From: a bacterium
GTDB taxonomy: Bacteria > Cyanobacteriota > Vampirovibrionia > Gastranaerophilales > Gastranaerophilaceae
Length of the DNA stretch: 37,944 nucleotides
Direction: 5' to 3'
Assembly: GCA_017942035.1 (NCBI GenBank)
Contig: JAGAVG010000033.1
Location: 1 to 37,944, forward strand
Part shown: positions 14,395-36,017 of the stretch, in pieces
How positions within the stretch are numbered: position 1 is the first letter of the stretch
Layout: every line of letters starts with the position of its first letter
The notes under the pieces: model-generated
What the model saw: only the letters and a program-made list of their open reading frames with translations
What the model was told of the DNA's origin: nothing
Database searches by the model: none
Program-made: the position numbers and the translations under genes

Positions 14395-14583
14395 GGTAGA
14401 CTAAAGTCTACCCTACAAGTTATACAACCTCCCTTGTTAAAGGGAGGGGGACCGCGTTAGCGGTGGTGGGATTTTTTTCGTCATTGCGAGGAGCGCAAGC
14501 GACGTGGCAATCTCGTTACTATAATCCCCCCTTCTCTTCCCCCCTTTGACAAGGGGGGAGGGCATACTTCGCTCGCAATGACG
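14395..14583. repeat. cluster of dispersed intergenic palindromes
   Basis: Several repeat families are packed together. They are the palindrome GGTAGACTAAAGTCTACC (14395-14412); a CCTCCCTTGTTAAAGGGAGG-type hairpin (from about 14429, related sequence near 14529-14560); TCATTGCGAGGAGCGCAAGC (14481-14500, running on to GTGGCAATCTCGTT); and its inverted partner ACTTCGCTCGCAATGAC (about 14566-14582). The first and last recur at 22774-22814 inside a prepilin gene, and the TCATTGCGA…TGGCAATCTCGTT unit recurs at 32641-32680. No gene is visible between 14390 and the Hyf-like promoter. Confidence 0.7.
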
Positions 14584-22053: not shown

Positions 22054-22875
22054 TTACAATTTATACGGATAATCCTTTTTGAACTCCCAGCCGTCTCGCA
22101 TTAATAACCCGCTGCAATGATAAGAATTTGCCTTACAATCATTTAAAAGATGCTCTCTGCTGACAGAAGTTTCACTACCAAAACTGCAGAAAAATCGGTC
22201 TTTATTTCCACAGTAGTTCATATTGGAACTTTCATTGAAACATAATAAGAAGTTATGTAAATCTCTGCCAAATTGATTTGGTTTTTTATCTCCATTCACG
22301 TCTACAAAAAAATCAATACAAATTCCATTCCAAAGTAATACAGTAGTGCCATCTGCCAGATATACTTTAGTAGATGATTTGATTTTTAAATCGTTGTTAT
22401 CTAATGTTCCTTCCTGATTTTTGCCCTGTTCAATTTTGATATATTTAATATATGGAGCCAAATATTTGATAAAGAAATTATAAGTGAATTCTCCGCTAGC
22501 ATCGAGATCATCATTTCCGTCATCATCTTTTAGCATTGGAGCTTTGTTCCATTCGGAAGGCAAACCGTTAGTAACTTCAGATAACCGAATAGCCTGATTC
22601 ATTGAACTGTAGAATTTCTTTAACCTTGAAGAATACTCGACTTTTTTATAATGCTGAATCAATGCTGGCAAAGTCATCGCCGCCACAATTCCAATTATTC
22701 CGAGAGTGATTAGAACTTCCGCCAATGTAAACGCGGTTTTATGACGACCGGCAAGGCGGCAATCCAATTTTTCTGGTAGACTAAAGTCTACCCTACTACT
22801 TCGCTCGCAATGACTATTTTTTATCATATTATCCTCTTTCAATTTTTTGCCCTCCATAATTTCATATTTTAGCAT
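22054..22875 (-). CDS. prepilin-like secreted protein (type IV pilin/pseudopilin signal)
   Basis: This 273-residue protein has a prepilin-peptidase signal: TAFTLAEVLITLG at 47-59, with E53 as the conserved +5-type glutamate. A hydrophobic helix (about 50-75) then leads into a globular domain with several cysteines (…NYCGNKDRFFCSFG, SYHCSG). The C-terminus DGWEFKKDYPYKL is shared in style with the 32788 protein. The leader is unusually long (about 48 residues). Part of it (HCERSSRVDFSLP) is encoded by two dispersed intergenic repeats. ATG 22875 is supported by AAAGGAG upstream. It is likely a minor pilin or type II secretion-like pseudopilin, assembled or displayed at the cell surface. The ~170 bp promoter element lies directly upstream and points away. 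Confidence 0.8.
   Translation of the reverse strand: MLKYEIMEGKKLKEDNMIKNSHCERSSRVDFSLPEKLDCRLAGRHKTAFTLAEVLITLGIIGIVAAMTLPALIQHYKKVEYSSRLKKFYSSMNQAIRLSEVTNGLPSEWNKAPMLKDDDGNDDLDASGEFTYNFFIKYLAPYIKYIKIEQGKNQEGTLDNNDLKIKSSTKVYLADGTTVLLWNGICIDFFVDVNGDKKPNQFGRDLHNFLLCFNESSNMNYCGNKDRFFCSFGSETSVSREHLLNDCKANSYHCSGLLMRDGWEFKKDYPYKL
22774..22814. repeat. intergenic repeats inside the prepilin leader
   Basis: GGTAGACTAAAGTCTACC followed by CTTCGCTCGCAATGAC is a copy of the repeats at 14395-14412 and 14566-14582, here translated in frame as part of the prepilin leader peptide. Confidence 0.8.
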
Positions 22876-25066: not shown

Positions 25067-25510
25067 ATGAGTATAATGGAATCAATGAATATTGGCTCAA
25101 ATGCCTTAAGAGCACATGGCTTAAGAATAGATATCCATGCCAAAAACATGGCAAACATTGATACACCGAATTACGTAAGACGTATTCCGATATTAAATGC
25201 GACGGAAGACATTTCCTTCCATGGTCTGATGAACAGCATGAAAGAGGATGTATTTGGTGTAGGAACCCTTCCGTATTTGCAAGGCGGAGTAGCATTTAAC
25301 GGTTGTGTAGAAGATCCGACTCTTGGGGATAAGATTTATCGTCCGGGGCATCCGGATGCAGATGAAAATGGTTACATCAGAGCCTCAAACGTAAATCCGA
25401 TGGTGGAAATGTCGGACGCAATCCTTGCCCAGCGAGCTTATGAGGCAAACTTAGCGGTAATAAGCATGACAAAAGCAATGGCTCTAAAAGCTGTCGAAAT
25501 CGGTAGATAG
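25067..25510 (+). CDS. flgC: flagellar proximal rod protein FlgC
   Basis: A 147-residue FlgC. It has the rod signature AKNMANIDTPNYVRR near 25-39, the middle segment IYRPGHPDADENGYIRASNVNPMVEM, which is diagnostic of FlgC, and the C-terminal DAILAQRAYEANLAVISMTKAMALKAVEIGR helix. It is the last gene of the operon in view. A fliE gene would often follow, but here a TIR element begins almost at once after the stop, so the operon may have been cut short. Confidence 0.93.
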   Translation: MSIMESMNIGSNALRAHGLRIDIHAKNMANIDTPNYVRRIPILNATEDISFHGLMNSMKEDVFGVGTLPYLQGGVAFNGCVEDPTLGDKIYRPGHPDADENGYIRASNVNPMVEMSDAILAQRAYEANLAVISMTKAMALKAVEIGR

Positions 25511-26527: not shown

Positions 26528-26598
26528 GGAATCGGTATACGCGCACGTTTGAGGGGCGTGTGGGGAAACCCGTGCGGGTTCAAGTCCCGCCGTCGACA
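26517..26598 (+). tRNA. tRNA-Leu (anticodon GAG)
   Basis: GTCGACG (26517-26523) pairs with CGTCGAC (26591-26597) as the acceptor stem, with discriminator A at 26598. A D-arm (GCGGAATCGGTATACGC), an anticodon stem CACGT/GCGTG with loop TTGAGGG (anticodon GAG), a long class II variable arm (TGGGGAAACCCGT) and a T-arm GCGGG-TTCAAGT-CCCGC follow. CCA is not encoded. It reads CUC/CUU leucine codons. The 3' half is also the tail-coding end of the oppositely oriented recombinase gene. Confidence 0.95.
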
Positions 26599-28280
26599 TT
26601 TAACTTTTTAGAGTCTCCTTGATGAGGCTCTATTTCAGTATTTAAACGGTTTTGGCGAGTTCCAATCATAGTTACATTGCTCAAGGTCAAACGGTCTTTT
26701 TTAAGGGCTTGTTTTGCACTCTCTGAGCGAGTTTCAAGAGTTCCAGTCAATGTTTTTAAGTCTGCTGAGAATTCCTGTTTTCGTCTTGCTTTCATTTGTC
26801 TTAGGTGTTCAAACACTGGTCTCAACTTCACTTTAAGCCTGTTTGTATCTTCATCAAATATGATACTTTCAGTTATAGTATTCAGTATCAGTCGTTTTTC
26901 TTCAAGTGTAGCTTTCAGGTATAACTCAGGTATTCTGTTTGCAAAGTCAATTAAGATACTAATTCGTTTAACTGTGTCCTTTGAGTTCTCAGATAAATTA
27001 CTTATCTCATTAGCAACAGCACTCTTTCGAGTTTCCAGTTTCTTGATTATTTCTGCTCGTGTTGTATCACTTACCCCTAATTTGCTTGTGTTACTTGCTA
27101 TTAAGTGCTCTGCTATCAGGTCTGTAAGCTCATCATATTGCTTTTTAAGGTCATCAATCGACTTATGTTCATATTTCTTTAAGTCTTTAATGGCATTAGT
27201 TATCTCTTTCTTAACTGCCTTGATTTCAGCTTCTGTAATATCAAAGCTCTCAATTACTTCTTGCATGGCTTCATCAATTAAGACTTCATTAATATTCTTC
27301 TCTTTTCTATGTGTCTTTAAATAGTTTGAACAATGATAATATAGGTATGTGCCACTGTTATTCGCACCGTGTTTTGTTATTCCAACCATACTATAGCCGC
27401 ATTTAGCACATTTGATAAAGTTAGAATATGTATAGACAAGCCCTCTGGGAGACTTAATTTCAGACCCTTTAAGCATGAGTTGCACCCTGTAGAATAACTC
27501 AGGTGATACAATCGGCTCATGCACACCGTCAAAAATATCCCCACCATGAACTACTTTTCCTGCATATACAGGGCTCTTGATGATGTCTTCAATTCTTTTT
27601 ACTGTGTATGGTTTACCTTTGCTATCTACAAATCCATACTTAGCTAACTCTTTTCCTATTCTTTCATAGGAGAAAAGCCCTGTAGCATAAAGCTCAAAAC
27701 ATCTCTTTATATGGTGGGCTTTGTTCACATCAGGTTTGATAATTCCATGTTTGTGCTCATCTCGTGTGTTGATATAGCCTACAGGGGCTTTGCCATGAAA
27801 ATACCCCCTTGTTACACGGTTTCTAACTACTGAGCTTGTTCTCTCTTTGATATTGTCAAGCTCATCTTCTGCTTGCCCTATATAAACACCTATAAGGACT
27901 TTCTTAACTTTCTTGATGTCATCAAAGTTTTCCATGATACTTGCAATAGTACAACCACACTGCTTTATAGGTTTAAGTATTTCTGCAAAGAAATCTTCTA
28001 AGCAACGAGAGAGCCTGTCTAACTTCCACACAACAACATAAGCAACCTCATGCCTGTGTTCTTTTACATATTTTAGCATGGCTTTAAGTCCTTTACGGTC
28101 TGTGTTAGAGCCCGTTTTGCCTGCGTCCTCAAAGTACACAAAGCTATAGCCTTGTGCTGTTGCTTTGTTCTTGCAGAGCTCTTTCTGCATTTCAAGGCTA
28201 TAGCCACTGCTAGCCTGTTCAGCAGAGCTAACTCTGCCATAACCTACAACGATTTTTCTACTACAATTTTTCTTTGTCAT
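26580..28280 (-). CDS. large serine recombinase (resolvase-type integrase)
   Basis: This enzyme catalyses site-specific integration/excision of the element. The 566-residue protein has the N-terminal resolvase catalytic domain with the active serine in [11 protein letters not shown] (S18) and the WKLDRLSR arginine motif. A recombinase domain follows (about 160-260, [10 protein letters not shown]… and KSPVYAGKV). Next come a zinc-ribbon domain with [10 protein letters not shown]…YYHCSNYLK and a coiled-coil region (about 340-430, [17 protein letters not shown]), the standard order for large serine integrases. The last codons (KKLNVDGGT) are encoded by the 3' half of tRNA-Leu, so the C-terminus was set by the insertion point. 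The start at 28280 has GGAG seven bases upstream and overlaps the preceding gene by 20 bases. Confidence 0.93.
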
Positions 28281-30663: not shown

Positions 30664-30909
30664 CTCTTCAGTATATAGTTTTTTTTATTTTAAGTAAATA
30701 GGATATTTAGGTAAAAATGAGAAATGTTAACTTTTGTTAATAAATTTAATCTTTCTGTAATGCAGGTATATCAAGTGATTTAGAAATTTCACCAAAATAA
30801 CACATAAAATTTCATGCAATTTTTCAAGACAAAATTTTTTTATAAAGACATAGGGGATAATTTAAAAATTAATTTTCTTGTCACGAGGAAAATTGAAAGG
30901 GGAAAAAAG

Positions 30910-32484
30910 ATGACAACAAATTTTAACACTGTAGATGCTCTTCAAAGACCAAGCTTGTTATTTGGCAGCAAAAAAGAGCGCAAAGCTGTAAGAAAAAATT
31001 TAGAACAACAGTTTATGTCTGAATATTTGGCAAAAGGCATGAATGAAAAGCAAGCAAAAAGATTTGCAAAAGCTAAAGTAGAAAATTATGCAGCCGAAGA
31101 AAGAGTTGCTAGAACTGTTACTTATTATGACAAAGAGGCTGGAAAAGAAGCAAAAAAATTAGTAAAAAAAGAAGATATGCCATTCTTCGTTGAAATTTTG
31201 AGTAAAAGAGACAAAAAAGTTATCGATCGCAATGCCGAAGATTTTAAAAACAATGGGGAATTAGCTCTGAATAAATCAAAAGAATTTATTCATGGCTGGA
31301 CCGGAGATGACTTAACACTTAATGATGGTTCAAATTTGGAAAGACCGGAAGATCATGTACTTGCAAATTATTTAGGAACAAGTGATAGAAGAGCAAGACA
31401 TATTGCTAAGAAATTCGGATTTGAAGCACCTAGTCTAGCATTGAAACGTGCCGCTCACGTTGCAACCGGAGGACTTTTAGGTGGAGCATTCGGTGGCGGA
31501 GCTGCAAAATCCGGAGATACAACAGCAACCTTCTTTAGTAATGCAGTTGTAGATCATAATGGAAACATTTTAAAAGACCCAATTCTTGATATTGTTAAAA
31601 TCCACGGTGATGTTGCCGGCGCACTGACAGCAGGTGCAGTACTCGGCGCATTAGGCGGTATCGGAACAATTAATGCAGTTGGCGGCGACAAAGACTTGTT
31701 CAACGGTCGCGAACCAAAAGCAATTATTGAATCTCGTAACATAAAAGGTCTTGATAAGAGCATTCAACCTTTAATGACCGCAATTATTGCAGATGAAGTA
31801 ATGACAGATGATCAGAAAGTTCAGCTCATAACAGAAGCTATCGGTAAAAATTCAAGTTCATTATGTAATGAAAGAGAATTTGTGGCATTATACGACAAAA
31901 TTCTTAATCAAAAACCGCAAGGCAATCAACCACCGCAAGGTAATACGCAGCCACCACAGGGTAACACTCAGCCGCCGCAGGGGAACACTCAACCTCCACA
32001 GGGTAATACTCAACCGCCGCAAGAAACTTGCCCGATTGAAGATTACGAAAAAGATGTAAAAGAAGAAAAAGATGTCGAAATGAAATCTTACGATTACAGA
32101 CCAAAAAGAGGTGAATACTGGTACGGAATTGTAGCTGCTAAATATGGCCTAAAAGACCCGGTAGAAATTAAAGCCGCAGTTAAAGAACTTAAACAATTAC
32201 ACGGTTTAACAGATGCACAAAGAAAACAAAATATTCAACCTAAGGTGATGCATCTTCCTGAAACTTTACACGGACATAAATATCTGGGAAATAAAGTTAC
32301 AGAAAGAACAAATAAATTCCCAAAAGCAAAACCATATAATGGTAAATACACAAATCCGACAACTAAACAACAAGTAGAAACTAGAAAATATGGTTTTGAA
32401 GATTGCGAATACACAAGCCCGCTATATAATGACAAGGCAACTCGTAATGCGGAAAAAGAAAAATACGCTCAGTCAAGAAAATAG
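30910..32484 (+). CDS. unknown 524-residue protein with Phe-Gly N-terminus, Gly-rich helices and a PQGNT repeat linker
   Basis: The N-terminus MTTNFNTVDALQRPSLLFGSKK contains the Phe-Gly motif seen in other unknown proteins here. A charged helical region follows (about 20-170), then two Gly/Ala-rich hydrophobic stretches (about 184-202 and 235-258) that could insert in or cross a membrane. A low-complexity linker of five PQGNTQP-type units (about 336-371) comes next. The C-terminal region (about 392-455) contains YRPKRGEYWYGIVAAKYGL and is faintly LysM-like, so cell-wall binding is possible. ATG 30910 with GAAAGGGG upstream is better supported than the frame start at 30814. It is a surface- or envelope-associated candidate, function unknown. 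Confidence 0.7.
   Translation: MTTNFNTVDALQRPSLLFGSKKERKAVRKNLEQQFMSEYLAKGMNEKQAKRFAKAKVENYAAEERVARTVTYYDKEAGKEAKKLVKKEDMPFFVEILSKRDKKVIDRNAEDFKNNGELALNKSKEFIHGWTGDDLTLNDGSNLERPEDHVLANYLGTSDRRARHIAKKFGFEAPSLALKRAAHVATGGLLGGAFGGGAAKSGDTTATFFSNAVVDHNGNILKDPILDIVKIHGDVAGALTAGAVLGALGGIGTINAVGGDKDLFNGREPKAIIESRNIKGLDKSIQPLMTAIIADEVMTDDQKVQLITEAIGKNSSSLCNEREFVALYDKILNQKPQGNQPPQGNTQPPQGNTQPPQGNTQPPQGNTQPPQETCPIEDYEKDVKEEKDVEMKSYDYRPKRGEYWYGIVAAKYGLKDPVEIKAAVKELKQLHGLTDAQRKQNIQPKVMHLPETLHGHKYLGNKVTERTNKFPKAKPYNGKYTNPTTKQQVETRKYGFEDCEYTSPLYNDKATRNAEKEKYAQSRK
31915..32023 (+). repeat. 21 bp coding tandem repeat (PQGNTQP)
   Basis: About five tandem 21-base units encode PQGNTQP. Third-codon differences between units (CCGCAAGG, CCACAGGG, CCGCAGGG) show the array is not brand new. 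Length variation here would stay in frame. Confidence 0.85.
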
Positions 32485-32787: not shown

Positions 32788-33621
32788 TTACCAAGTGGGA
32801 TAATCGTCTTTGATTTCCCAGCCGTCATATTGGATAAGTGTTGTGCAATAACCTTTTTGCCAAGTAGAGCATTTTTGCATCAGCCATTCTCTTGTTCCGT
32901 CCCAAGCATAAGTAGGTGTATTCCCAGCAATCCAGAATCCGAATGTCTTTTTGCCATCAGAAATAGTTTCTGAATCTTCAAATGGCCCGTTATCAGCTAA
33001 TTGCTTGCAATCTTTGTAATATGGACAAAATATTAGATAATTTCTAACAGATTCATTAGGTCTGGTAAAATGGTAATAATAAAACCCTGAACCGTTTTGC
33101 AGTGCACCTGTAATTCCATATCTTGATTTTTCAACTTTCATAGTTCTAACATATTTGCCAAAGGTTTCATTATAAGCATTCAATGCAGCTTCCGGATCTT
33201 TTGCACCTAAAGTTACCGATAAACTGCCGCCTTGTTCATATTCAACCTGCCTGTAAGCTTGTTGCCAAACAGACGCAAATTGCTTAACCCTCGTGGCAAC
33301 GACTTTTTTCTGATGCTTCGTAATTAACGCCGGCAACGTCATCGCCGCCACAACACCGATTATCCCGAGAGTGATAAGAACCTCCGCCAATGTAAACGCG
33401 GTTTTACGGTGACCGGCAAAGTGTGATAAAGCTTCTGCCGAAGTGTAGGCGGTTTTACGGTGACCGGCAAAGTGTGATAAAGCTTCTGCCGAAGTGAAGG
33501 CGGTTTTACGACGACTGGCAAAGTGTGATAAAGCTTCTGCCGAAGTGTAGGCGTTTTTACTACAACTGACAAAGTGTGATAAAAAAACTTCGGCCAAAGT
33601 GAACGCAAATTTCTTTTTCAT
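32788..33621 (-). CDS. prepilin-like protein with a five-fold repeated prepilin signal motif
   Basis: The 277-residue protein starts at ATG 33621 (GAGGA five bases before it); the frame extends upstream without support. It opens MKKKFAFTLAEV, which alone would be a normal prepilin signal. It then repeats a 17-residue unit ending NAYTSAEAL, TAFTSAEAL, TAYTSAEAL and finally TAFTLAEVLITLGIIGVVAAM, so the conserved glutamate recurs at 11, 29, 46, 63 and 80. Only the last copy is followed by the long hydrophobic helix needed for a pilin, so cleavage most likely occurs near residue 75. The globular part is about 180 residues, and the C-terminus is DGWEIKDDYPTW. It is divergent from the XRE regulator gene. 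Confidence 0.8.
   Translation of the reverse strand: MKKKFAFTLAEVFLSHFVSCSKNAYTSAEALSHFASRRKTAFTSAEALSHFAGHRKTAYTSAEALSHFAGHRKTAFTLAEVLITLGIIGVVAAMTLPALITKHQKKVVATRVKQFASVWQQAYRQVEYEQGGSLSVTLGAKDPEAALNAYNETFGKYVRTMKVEKSRYGITGALQNGSGFYYYHFTRPNESVRNYLIFCPYYKDCKQLADNGPFEDSETISDGKKTFGFWIAGNTPTYAWDGTREWLMQKCSTWQKGYCTTLIQYDGWEIKDDYPTW
33388..33591 (-). repeat. 51 bp tandem repeat (four units) in the prepilin leader
   Basis: The units start at 33388, 33439, 33490 and 33541. Each contains GGCAAAGTGTGATAAA (plus strand), and three of the four carry GCTTCTGC. The middle two differ at about four positions; the outer ones blend into the true prepilin signal and into the gene start. A multiple of three keeps the frame. 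There are no unique spacers, so it is not a CRISPR array. Confidence 0.9.
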
Positions 33622-33732: not shown

Positions 33733-34056
33733 ATGACAAATATAAAAAAATTATTAGGGGCGAAGATTAGCCAAATTAGAAAAGAGAAGGGGATTTCGCA
33801 GATGAAATTTGCGGAAATACTCGGGATTTCAACAAATGCATTAAGCCTGATTGAAACCGGAAACGGCTTTTTGACTGCCGAAACCCTCGAAAAAGTTCTG
33901 GAGAACTTGAATGTTGAACCTGACGAATTATTTTCATTTGGCGGAACGAAATCTAACGAGGAATTGCATCAAAATATTCTTAAAAACTTAGAAATAATCA
34001 AAACTGACAGAACTAAACTTACGGTTATAAATACAATAATAAAAACATTAATGTAA
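33733..34056 (+). CDS. XRE-family helix-turn-helix regulator
   Basis: A 107-residue DNA-binding protein. The Cro/CI-type helix-turn-helix covers about residues 6-62 (LGAKISQIRKEKGISQMKFAEILGISTNALSLIETGN…). The C-terminal helical tail probably dimerises. It is divergent from the repeat-containing prepilin gene 112 bases away and could control it or the downstream alcohol dehydrogenase gene; both are inference. GAAGGT precedes the ATG. It shows no phage or toxin-antitoxin partner next to it, so it need not belong to a mobile element. Confidence 0.88.
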   Translation: MTNIKKLLGAKISQIRKEKGISQMKFAEILGISTNALSLIETGNGFLTAETLEKVLENLNVEPDELFSFGGTKSNEELHQNILKNLEIIKTDRTKLTVINTIIKTLM

Positions 34057-35231: not shown

Positions 35232-36017
35232 CTATTTCTTCAAATAGTCCATGTTGCCCTGCTCAAGAATATATTTTGAACAAGACCAGCCATAACTTGA
35301 ACTGTTACAATCATCATTTCCAAATGTTACAATACCGTTTTTAACAAGTGCAAATAGAAATATATCTTTTGCTATGGTATTAGGCGGATTTTTACCATTA
35401 ATATCTATCCATAAAGTTCCACAAGAATTATTTACGCCATAATCATTAGTGGCACAATATGTATTTACAGCAGTTCTTAGCCACATATAAGTTCCATCGT
35501 TTAAAATTAGTTTATAATAACCATTGTTAGAGTCATAATTTGCCCAGTTATTGCCATTCAGAAGCTTAATAGTTCCATTTTGTAAACATCCGCTTGATGT
35601 TCCGCAATCTTTGGCAATTTTTAAATACGGTTTCAAATAATCCATTAACTTTTCGGTACCTTCTTTTGTAAGTCCACCTGACACATCCCATTCATCTAAA
35701 TAACCATGATCTTTAATTGCCATTAACTGTGCCTGAGACATGACAGAATAAAATTTCTTAACCTTGTTAACCGTAACCCGCTCCTGATGCTTTTGAATTA
35801 AAGGAGGCAGCGTCATCGCCGCAACAACGCCGATTATTCCGAGAGTAATCAAAACTTCCGCCAAGGTAAACGCGTTTTTGCTTTTTACCCTCTCTCTTTG
35901 TGAGAGGGTTGAATTTGTTAGTGAGCAGAATGCGAACTTACAAATTCGGGAGAGGGTTTTATGTAATGACTTTGCCCCCTCACCCTGCCCTCTTGCCTTC
36001 TGTTCTTCTATATTCAT
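35232..36017 (-). CDS. prepilin-like secreted protein with repeat-derived leader
   Basis: A 261-residue prepilin/pseudopilin. The signal NAFTLAEVLITLGIIGVVAAM begins near residue 48 (E54) and continues into a hydrophobic helix. A globular domain rich in Asn, Gly and Tyr follows (NNGYYKLILNDGTYMWLRT, SSSYGWSCS), with cysteines likely to form disulfides. The roughly 49-residue leader is long, and its RICKFAFCSLTNSTLSQRER part is encoded by a dispersed intergenic inverted repeat (35888-35958). The start at 36017 is supported by AAGGAGG eight bases upstream. As with the 22054 gene, a promoter-terminator element lies immediately upstream, pointing away. It likely belongs to the same pilus or type II-like system as the other two prepilins; no assembly ATPase or peptidase is in view. 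Confidence 0.8.
   Translation of the reverse strand: MNIEEQKARGQGEGAKSLHKTLSRICKFAFCSLTNSTLSQRERVKSKNAFTLAEVLITLGIIGVVAAMTLPPLIQKHQERVTVNKVKKFYSVMSQAQLMAIKDHGYLDEWDVSGGLTKEGTEKLMDYLKPYLKIAKDCGTSSGCLQNGTIKLLNGNNWANYDSNNGYYKLILNDGTYMWLRTAVNTYCATNDYGVNNSCGTLWIDINGKNPPNTIAKDIFLFALVKNGIVTFGNDDCNSSSYGWSCSKYILEQGNMDYLKK
35888..35958. repeat. CCCTCTC…GAATTTGT/ACAAATTC inverted repeat, copy 2 (inside a gene)
   Basis: This is nearly identical to 13656-13726 but in the opposite orientation. It is translated in frame within the prepilin leader. Confidence 0.8.

Follow-up and report, generated by a model that had tools for sequence, protein, structure and literature searches.

Most leaders of the prepilin-type proteins encoded by a Candidatus Gastranaerophilales genome were mosaics of genome-wide repeats, many of them palindromic, and in one gene (P0001) the leader carried four further units of the prepilin signal motif upstream of the last one. 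This architecture is probably the outcome of a cleaved leader that tolerates additions, in which in-frame repeats and recombinant motif copies have gathered and slippage has given rise to a five-motif array. The gene lies in the window, which here means the whole stretch of 37,944 nucleotides that was analysed and is contig C63 of the source genome (G000; 1,994,118 bases, 99.67% complete). The first-pass annotation of the window had described the array and missed the repeat mosaics.

The five-motif prepilin-type gene

As assembled, P0001 translates to MKKKFAFTLAEVFLSHFVSCSKNAYTSAEALSHFASRRKTAFTSAEALSHFAGHRKTAYTSAEALSHFAGHRKTA followed by FTLAEVLITLGIIGVVAAMTLP and contains five xA[FY]T[LS]AE motifs in units of 51-54 bp with Glu at residues 11, 29, 46, 63 and 80 (Table 1), in agreement with the first-pass description. 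TRF reported a 51 bp period at 33398-33583 with 3.6 copies, 93% matches, no indels and a score of 295. The near-identity previously ascribed to the units held for units 2-4 only (YTSAEA/FTSAEA, 17 residues each), with a single base separating units 3 and 4, while unit 1 is 18 residues long and diverged and has the layout of the 54 bp units found in sibling genes (FTLAEVFSSHFAGRRKT). Canonical FTLAEV is found in the first and last motifs only, Leu3 and Val6 of the motif having been lost in units 2-4. A hydrophobic helix directly follows the last motif only, and the leader has a net charge of +7 and no hydrophobic 19-mer (maximum Kyte-Doolittle value 0.85). The predicted RNA folding of the array was no more stable than that of shuffled sequences (z -0.04). 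From Met1 to the hydrophobic helix, start-type codons (ATG, GTG or TTG) were confined to TTG within the first and the last motif, and a membrane-inserted product can therefore be made only if the array is translated.

Table 1. Prepilin-type genes, repeat units and palindrome copies in the window
Feature	Position	Strand	Basis
P0001, prepilin-type gene with serial signal motifs, 277 aa	32788..33621	-	translation; Pfam N_methyl; TIGR02532
P0001 leader, 75 residues: start, four upstream motif units and RKTA	33397..33621	-	
P0001 unit 1, 54 bp, AFTLAEVFLSHFVSCSKN	33553..33606	-	
P0001 unit 2, 51 bp, AYTSAEALSHFASRRKT	33502..33552	-	
P0001 unit 3, 51 bp, AFTSAEALSHFAGHRKT	33451..33501	-	
P0001 unit 4, 51 bp, AYTSAEALSHFAGHRKT	33400..33450	-	
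P0001 last motif and hydrophobic helix, FTLAEVLITLGIIGVVAAMTLP	33331..33396	-	HMM matches, alignment
Second prepilin of the window; leader with RVDFSLP palindrome and LAGRHKTA (single-motif form of the P0001-type spacer)	22054..22875	-	
Palindrome GGTAGACTTTAGTCTACC copy within the leader of the second prepilin, read as RVDFSLP	22775..22792	-	
Third prepilin of the window; leader with palindromic element read as TLSRICKFAFCSLTNSTLSQRERV	35232..36017	-	
Palindrome GGTAGACTTTAGTCTACC copy outside any prepilin leader	14395..14412	-	

The last motif had been proposed as the working one, and the profile matches bear this out: Pfam N_methyl (PF07963; 25.6 bits against a cut-off of 21.2, residues 72-95) and NCBIfam TIGR02532 (18.6 against 16.3, residues 75-96) both covered that motif only, the sole one leading into the hydrophobic helix. 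Residues F76, T77, L78, A79 and E80 were invariant in 44 aligned sequences, and after Glu5 of the motif comes a hydrophobic tract of about 21 residues, as is expected of a type IV prepilin. A single gene in the source genome scored over the cut-off for Peptidase_A24 (C84:50494-50883). Bacterial prepilin leaders are hydrophilic, 6-26 aa in length and have an invariant Gly at position -1 (review PMC4471445). The leader of P0001 is hydrophilic but its 75 aa fall outside this range, and because position -1 is Ala rather than Gly the protein is called prepilin-like by its HMM matches, not a textbook type IV prepilin. Judged by these sequence features it is a type IV prepilin-like protein, one among about 125 paralogues, and would be cleaved just before F76.

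An AlphaFold model of P0001 built with the 44 sequences had a pLDDT of 79, with a confident mature part comprising a 53-residue N-terminal helix followed by strands and a poorly ordered leader (mostly pLDDT < 60). A Foldseek search of the model against the PDB returned nothing below E 0.001, while a second look with VIA placed the pilin FimA first at a low Z of 3.5 over 123 residues with two other pilins lower. The predicted fold and its structural matches are compatible with a pilin and prove little. The prepilins, P0001 included (mature part at 32788-33380), had conserved cysteines in the C-terminal part and a GWxIxxDYP ending, set around a variable middle; C251 was invariant and C259, D273 and Y274 were nearly so; prepilins also matched DUF6613, P0001 scoring below its cut-off.

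Other features were noted near the gene. The adjoining 556-aa ORF (30814-32484) includes an in-frame 18-21 bp tandem repeat of QPPQGNT units at 31906-32023, and a gene for a small helix-turn-helix regulator, XRE-like by eye, is divergent from P0001 at 33733-34056. A large serine-recombinase-like ORF (566 aa, by eye) at 26580-28280 perhaps marks an inserted element.

Prepilin leaders as mosaics of genome-wide repeats

A protein search with P0001 gave 169 matches in the source genome, and the prepilin genes were taken from the sequence stretches around these matches. The 130 loci read corresponded to about 125 distinct genes whose start is nearly constant (FTLAEVLITLGIIGxVAAMTLP), and position -1 was Ala in 112 and Gly in 13 of 125 paralogues. 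Upstream of FTLAEV its own frame was open for a median of 56 codons compared with 6 and 5 codons for the other two frames (91 genes for which 450 nt upstream was available; Wilcoxon P about 3e-16 and 2e-16, nominal values since the tested genes are related), an open frame from which the leaders can be read as translated. Measured from the most upstream ATG, leader length had a median of 47 aa and a maximum of 149, values that are upper bounds because some genes may in fact start at a codon nearer to the motif. Positive charge was concentrated next to the motif, the last eight leader residues averaging +1.79 against +0.19 and +0.39 further out and including Lys or Arg in 121 of 123 cases, and a hydrophobic 19-mer was rare in the leaders.

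Contigs of the source genome often ended within or just upstream of prepilin leaders (e.g. C1, C5, C11, C15, C28, C53, C58 and C77), which suggests that the repeats probably break the assembly and that copy numbers may be underestimated. One prepilin paralogue, L128 (G000:C20:24200-25492), had a frameshift right after FTLAEV, near 25292-25429, with the helix going on in another frame.

The leaders read as translated strings of recurring modules including TSVYGWKGDRMLKYRIMEGKNLKEDNMIKNS, SRVDFSLPEKLDC, TLSRICKFAYCSLTNSTLSQRERV and NPSPQPSPTRGEG, and at the DNA level these modules are dispersed repeats, several of them inverted repeats. The palindrome GGTAGACTTTAGTCTACC, which has 8 bp arms around TT, was present in about 120 copies when two mismatches were allowed, each site matching both strands. 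It occurred in 50 prepilin leaders and in all 50 was read in a single codon phase, direct reading in the leader orientation giving stops in the other two phases. Two further leader elements were likewise restricted to a single codon phase (20/20 and 10/10). Among the roughly 70 copies of GGTAGACTTTAGTCTACC outside leaders, 20 were read and none of the 20 lay in a frame of more than 106 codons; within this sample, coding copies were seen only in prepilin leaders. Leaders make up an estimated 1% or so of the genome, based on their median length, yet hold 50 of the approximately 120 copies, which is a strong enrichment that has arisen partly via copying between paralogues.

Leaders were also uncoupled from the mature domains that they precede. 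The genes L011 and L073 are 92% identical over the mature region while one has a triple-motif leader and the other a palindrome leader, and the mature part of P0001 (L001) is 79% identical to that of L002 with unrelated leaders. Relatives of P0001 in other species, at 54-59% identity, had different leaders again.

Serial motifs across the order

The array was not an isolated oddity. At least 13 other leaders in the source genome had two or three motifs in a 54 bp unit, motif number among the serial-motif paralogues was 2, 3 or 5, and a second genome (G065) had arrays of up to four motifs in 54 bp units. In collections with one genome per species, the DNA pattern FTLAE-N(33-60)-FTLAEV gave 172 matches in 29 of 146 genomes of the family, compared with none for the reversed control. 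The search of the order for repeated motifs before the pilin helix that the first-pass annotation had proposed, carried out with a slightly relaxed double-motif pattern, identified 54 of 286 genomes in 10 of 50 genera; the pattern was absent from 22 genomes of other families in the order. A literature search outside subscription journals found no publication that describes serial motifs in prepilins or prepilin leaders built from repeats.

Spacers between the motifs were species-specific and near-constant within a genome (EVFSSHFAGRRKTA in G000 and EVFSPYYLSPRRIA in G065), while EGATHV... spacers occurred in several genera and EGGRRPHL... and EGRLACTTTQ... in g18. The ATHV palindrome GTGCTACGCACGTAG is a dispersed repeat that was also intergenic in two genomes (G016 and G156), and it was present in single-motif leaders (HCEGATHV... 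followed by FTLAEV) as well as in double-motif leaders. In three genomes the same spacer 3' end was found with and without an upstream motif, the trace that would be expected of recombination between leaders.

The distance between motifs was narrowly distributed. All 89 double-motif gaps checked by script were in frame at 36-45 nt, which corresponds to units of 17-20 aa, and by gap size 172 double motifs fell at 33-60 nt, whereas the 3-32 nt range was empty and the 61-90 nt range held a single case, a gap of 69 with an extra insertion in G106. This spacing was kept across several unrelated spacers, which counts against a tolerant leader because free insertion would spread the distances widely. 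It reflects either one ancestral unit with its spacer swapped piecemeal or selection; common descent of the unit could account for it. Two out-of-frame double motifs, the only ones among the matches listed, came from the relaxed pattern: G188:C1:512753-512833 (81 bases) and G219:C30:11494-11566 (73 bases), possibly in decayed genes.

Upstream motifs of serial leaders in G000 and G065 deviated from FTLAEV in 14 of 56 cases compared with 1 of 42 for the last motif of the same genes (Fisher P 0.0017, nominal as copies are related by descent). The decay is modest, since 42 of 56 upstream copies still read FTLAEV, and the last motif alone apparently works in these leaders. An origin of the doubles by recent duplication of the gene's own motif was unsupported (permutation P 0.23-1.0). 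In codon choice an upstream motif resembled the downstream motif of its own gene no more closely than it did the downstream motifs of other genes, so a founding duplication is not directly visible.

Origin of the arrays and comparison with known systems

In the mechanism that we favour, the prepilin peptidase would remove everything before the last A-FTLAEV junction, and as only a short basic stretch and the last motif matter, the leader would tolerate any in-frame sequence without a stop or a hydrophobic run. Dispersed and largely intergenic repeats, many of them palindromic, would enter leaders in the one open phase, and paralogues would swap leaders by recombining within the nearly identical DNA that surrounds the motif. 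Where a 5' end with a motif recombined at short homologies with a leader that contained repeats, a dead FTLAE would be left upstream of the live one, and the 51-54 bp unit would then multiply through slippage or unequal crossing-over, up to the five motifs of P0001. Neutral expansion of a leader that is cut off had been put forward in the first-pass annotation and is retained here as the likeliest cause, with the extra motifs presumed selectively neutral and cleavage predicted at the last motif.

The serial motifs may instead be functional at a fixed spacing, as docking sites for the prepilin peptidase or export machinery or as pseudo-substrates that slow processing, and in its broader form this reading takes tandem motifs at 17-20 residues as a functional signal of Gastranaerophilales family prepilins, the unrelated spacers being selected to hold a second FTLAE. 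Both forms are unlikely. A spacing that holds across nine to ten genera and several unrelated spacers argues for function, as do EVF spacers that are alike at the protein level across three genera (VF[SLA][SPTQ]...) and the exact FTLAEV retained in most upstream copies, whereas a single motif suffices in most of the approximately 125 paralogues, the closest paralogues differ in whether the extra motifs are present, decay is faster upstream than at the last motif and the 51 bp units of P0001 are without Leu3 and Val6. Because upstream motifs do not run into a hydrophobic stretch, they would not be expected to insert at the membrane, the site of peptidase action. The alternative cleavage, length tuning and slow export suggested in the first-pass annotation thus found no positive evidence, given this and the decay of the upstream motifs; the 17-20 aa spacing is the one observation by which the extra motifs may have a role, and on its account the functional reading is kept at low probability. 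The origin of the units is a separate matter, and it is conceivable, if doubtful, that they derive from the gene's own 5' end, FTLAEVLITLG... having been duplicated and the first copy frameshifted in the T-run after GAAGTT, which would convert the hydrophobic tract into a polar, basic spacer. A G001 spacer matched the core sequence in the shifted register better than shuffles did (P 0.005), spacers of the source genome were borderline (P 0.03-0.07, one 0.35) and the L128 frameshift is at this very spot, but G065, G099, G144 and G072 gave no signal and the ATHV-class spacer clearly belongs to a dispersed repeat. The case is only suggestive, and being concerned with unit origin it is compatible with a tolerant leader.

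That the leader is untranslated, with translation starting near the last motif and the upstream part an untranslated repeat, is very unlikely. Some siblings have an ATG near the motif inside a repeat (e.g. LAMTKPA followed by FTLAEV), as this explanation would have it; against it, the frame is open far beyond chance, the palindromes occupy the single open phase in 50 of 50 leaders and P0001 has no usable start just before its last motif, so the late start raised in the first-pass annotation as a challenge to the array is disfavoured. An array invented or mis-sized by short-read assembly is hardly credible. Repeats would cause the contig ends seen at many prepilin leaders, and the single-base difference between units 3 and 4 would also fit such an error, but the array is internal to its contig and forms a single open frame, serial motifs with species-specific spacers recur in the independent assemblies of 54 genomes, and the same architecture in ten genera makes an artefact unlikely as a general explanation.

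The tolerant-leader reading suggests that non-coding repeats can turn into protein at scale where the cell discards the product, as one gene family of a 2 Mb genome holds approximately 50 in-frame copies of one palindrome, GGTAGACTTTAGTCTACC. The accepted bounds of bacterial prepilin leaders, both in length and in Gly at -1, would be widened, and in this gut lineage starts could be wrongly assigned by annotation tools designed for short leaders. The constant distance between serial motifs is an odd feature, concrete and amenable to testing, and functional tandem motifs, if real, would constitute a signal-peptide class with a built-in pseudo-site.

Type IV prepilins with class III signal peptides (PilA, GspG, ComGC) have in common with P0001 the FTLAEV motif with Glu5, the hydrophobic N-terminal helix and the HMM matches, and the genome of P0001 also contains a Peptidase_A24 gene. 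Compared with those described, the P0001 leader is long at 75 aa (the median for the family is 47 and the maximum 149, measured from the most upstream ATG), Ala is at -1 in 112 of 125 family members and the upstream motifs are repeated. Rickettsia palindromic elements are dispersed coding selfish palindromes that occur between genes and in frame within proteins with one phase open. The palindromes of the source genome are similarly found both between genes and in frame inside genes, but those found in frame sit in a single family's removable leader. The core elements are short (18-70 bp), and the two kinds are likened by layout, not by sequence. PARCEL repeats, too, are coding, arranged in tandem and dyad-symmetric, occur in proteins targeted to the membrane and are shuffled within genomes; their unit is an amphipathic domain of 25 residues that the product retains, whereas the prepilin leader units are 17-20 residues long and belong to a part expected to be cut off, so they do not have the 25-residue amphipathic repeat that defines PARCEL. 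As in coding minisatellites and other intragenic tandem repeats, the 51 bp units of P0001 are near-identical and in frame and their number differs between paralogues, but unlike in those repeats a protein signal motif is copied with every unit.
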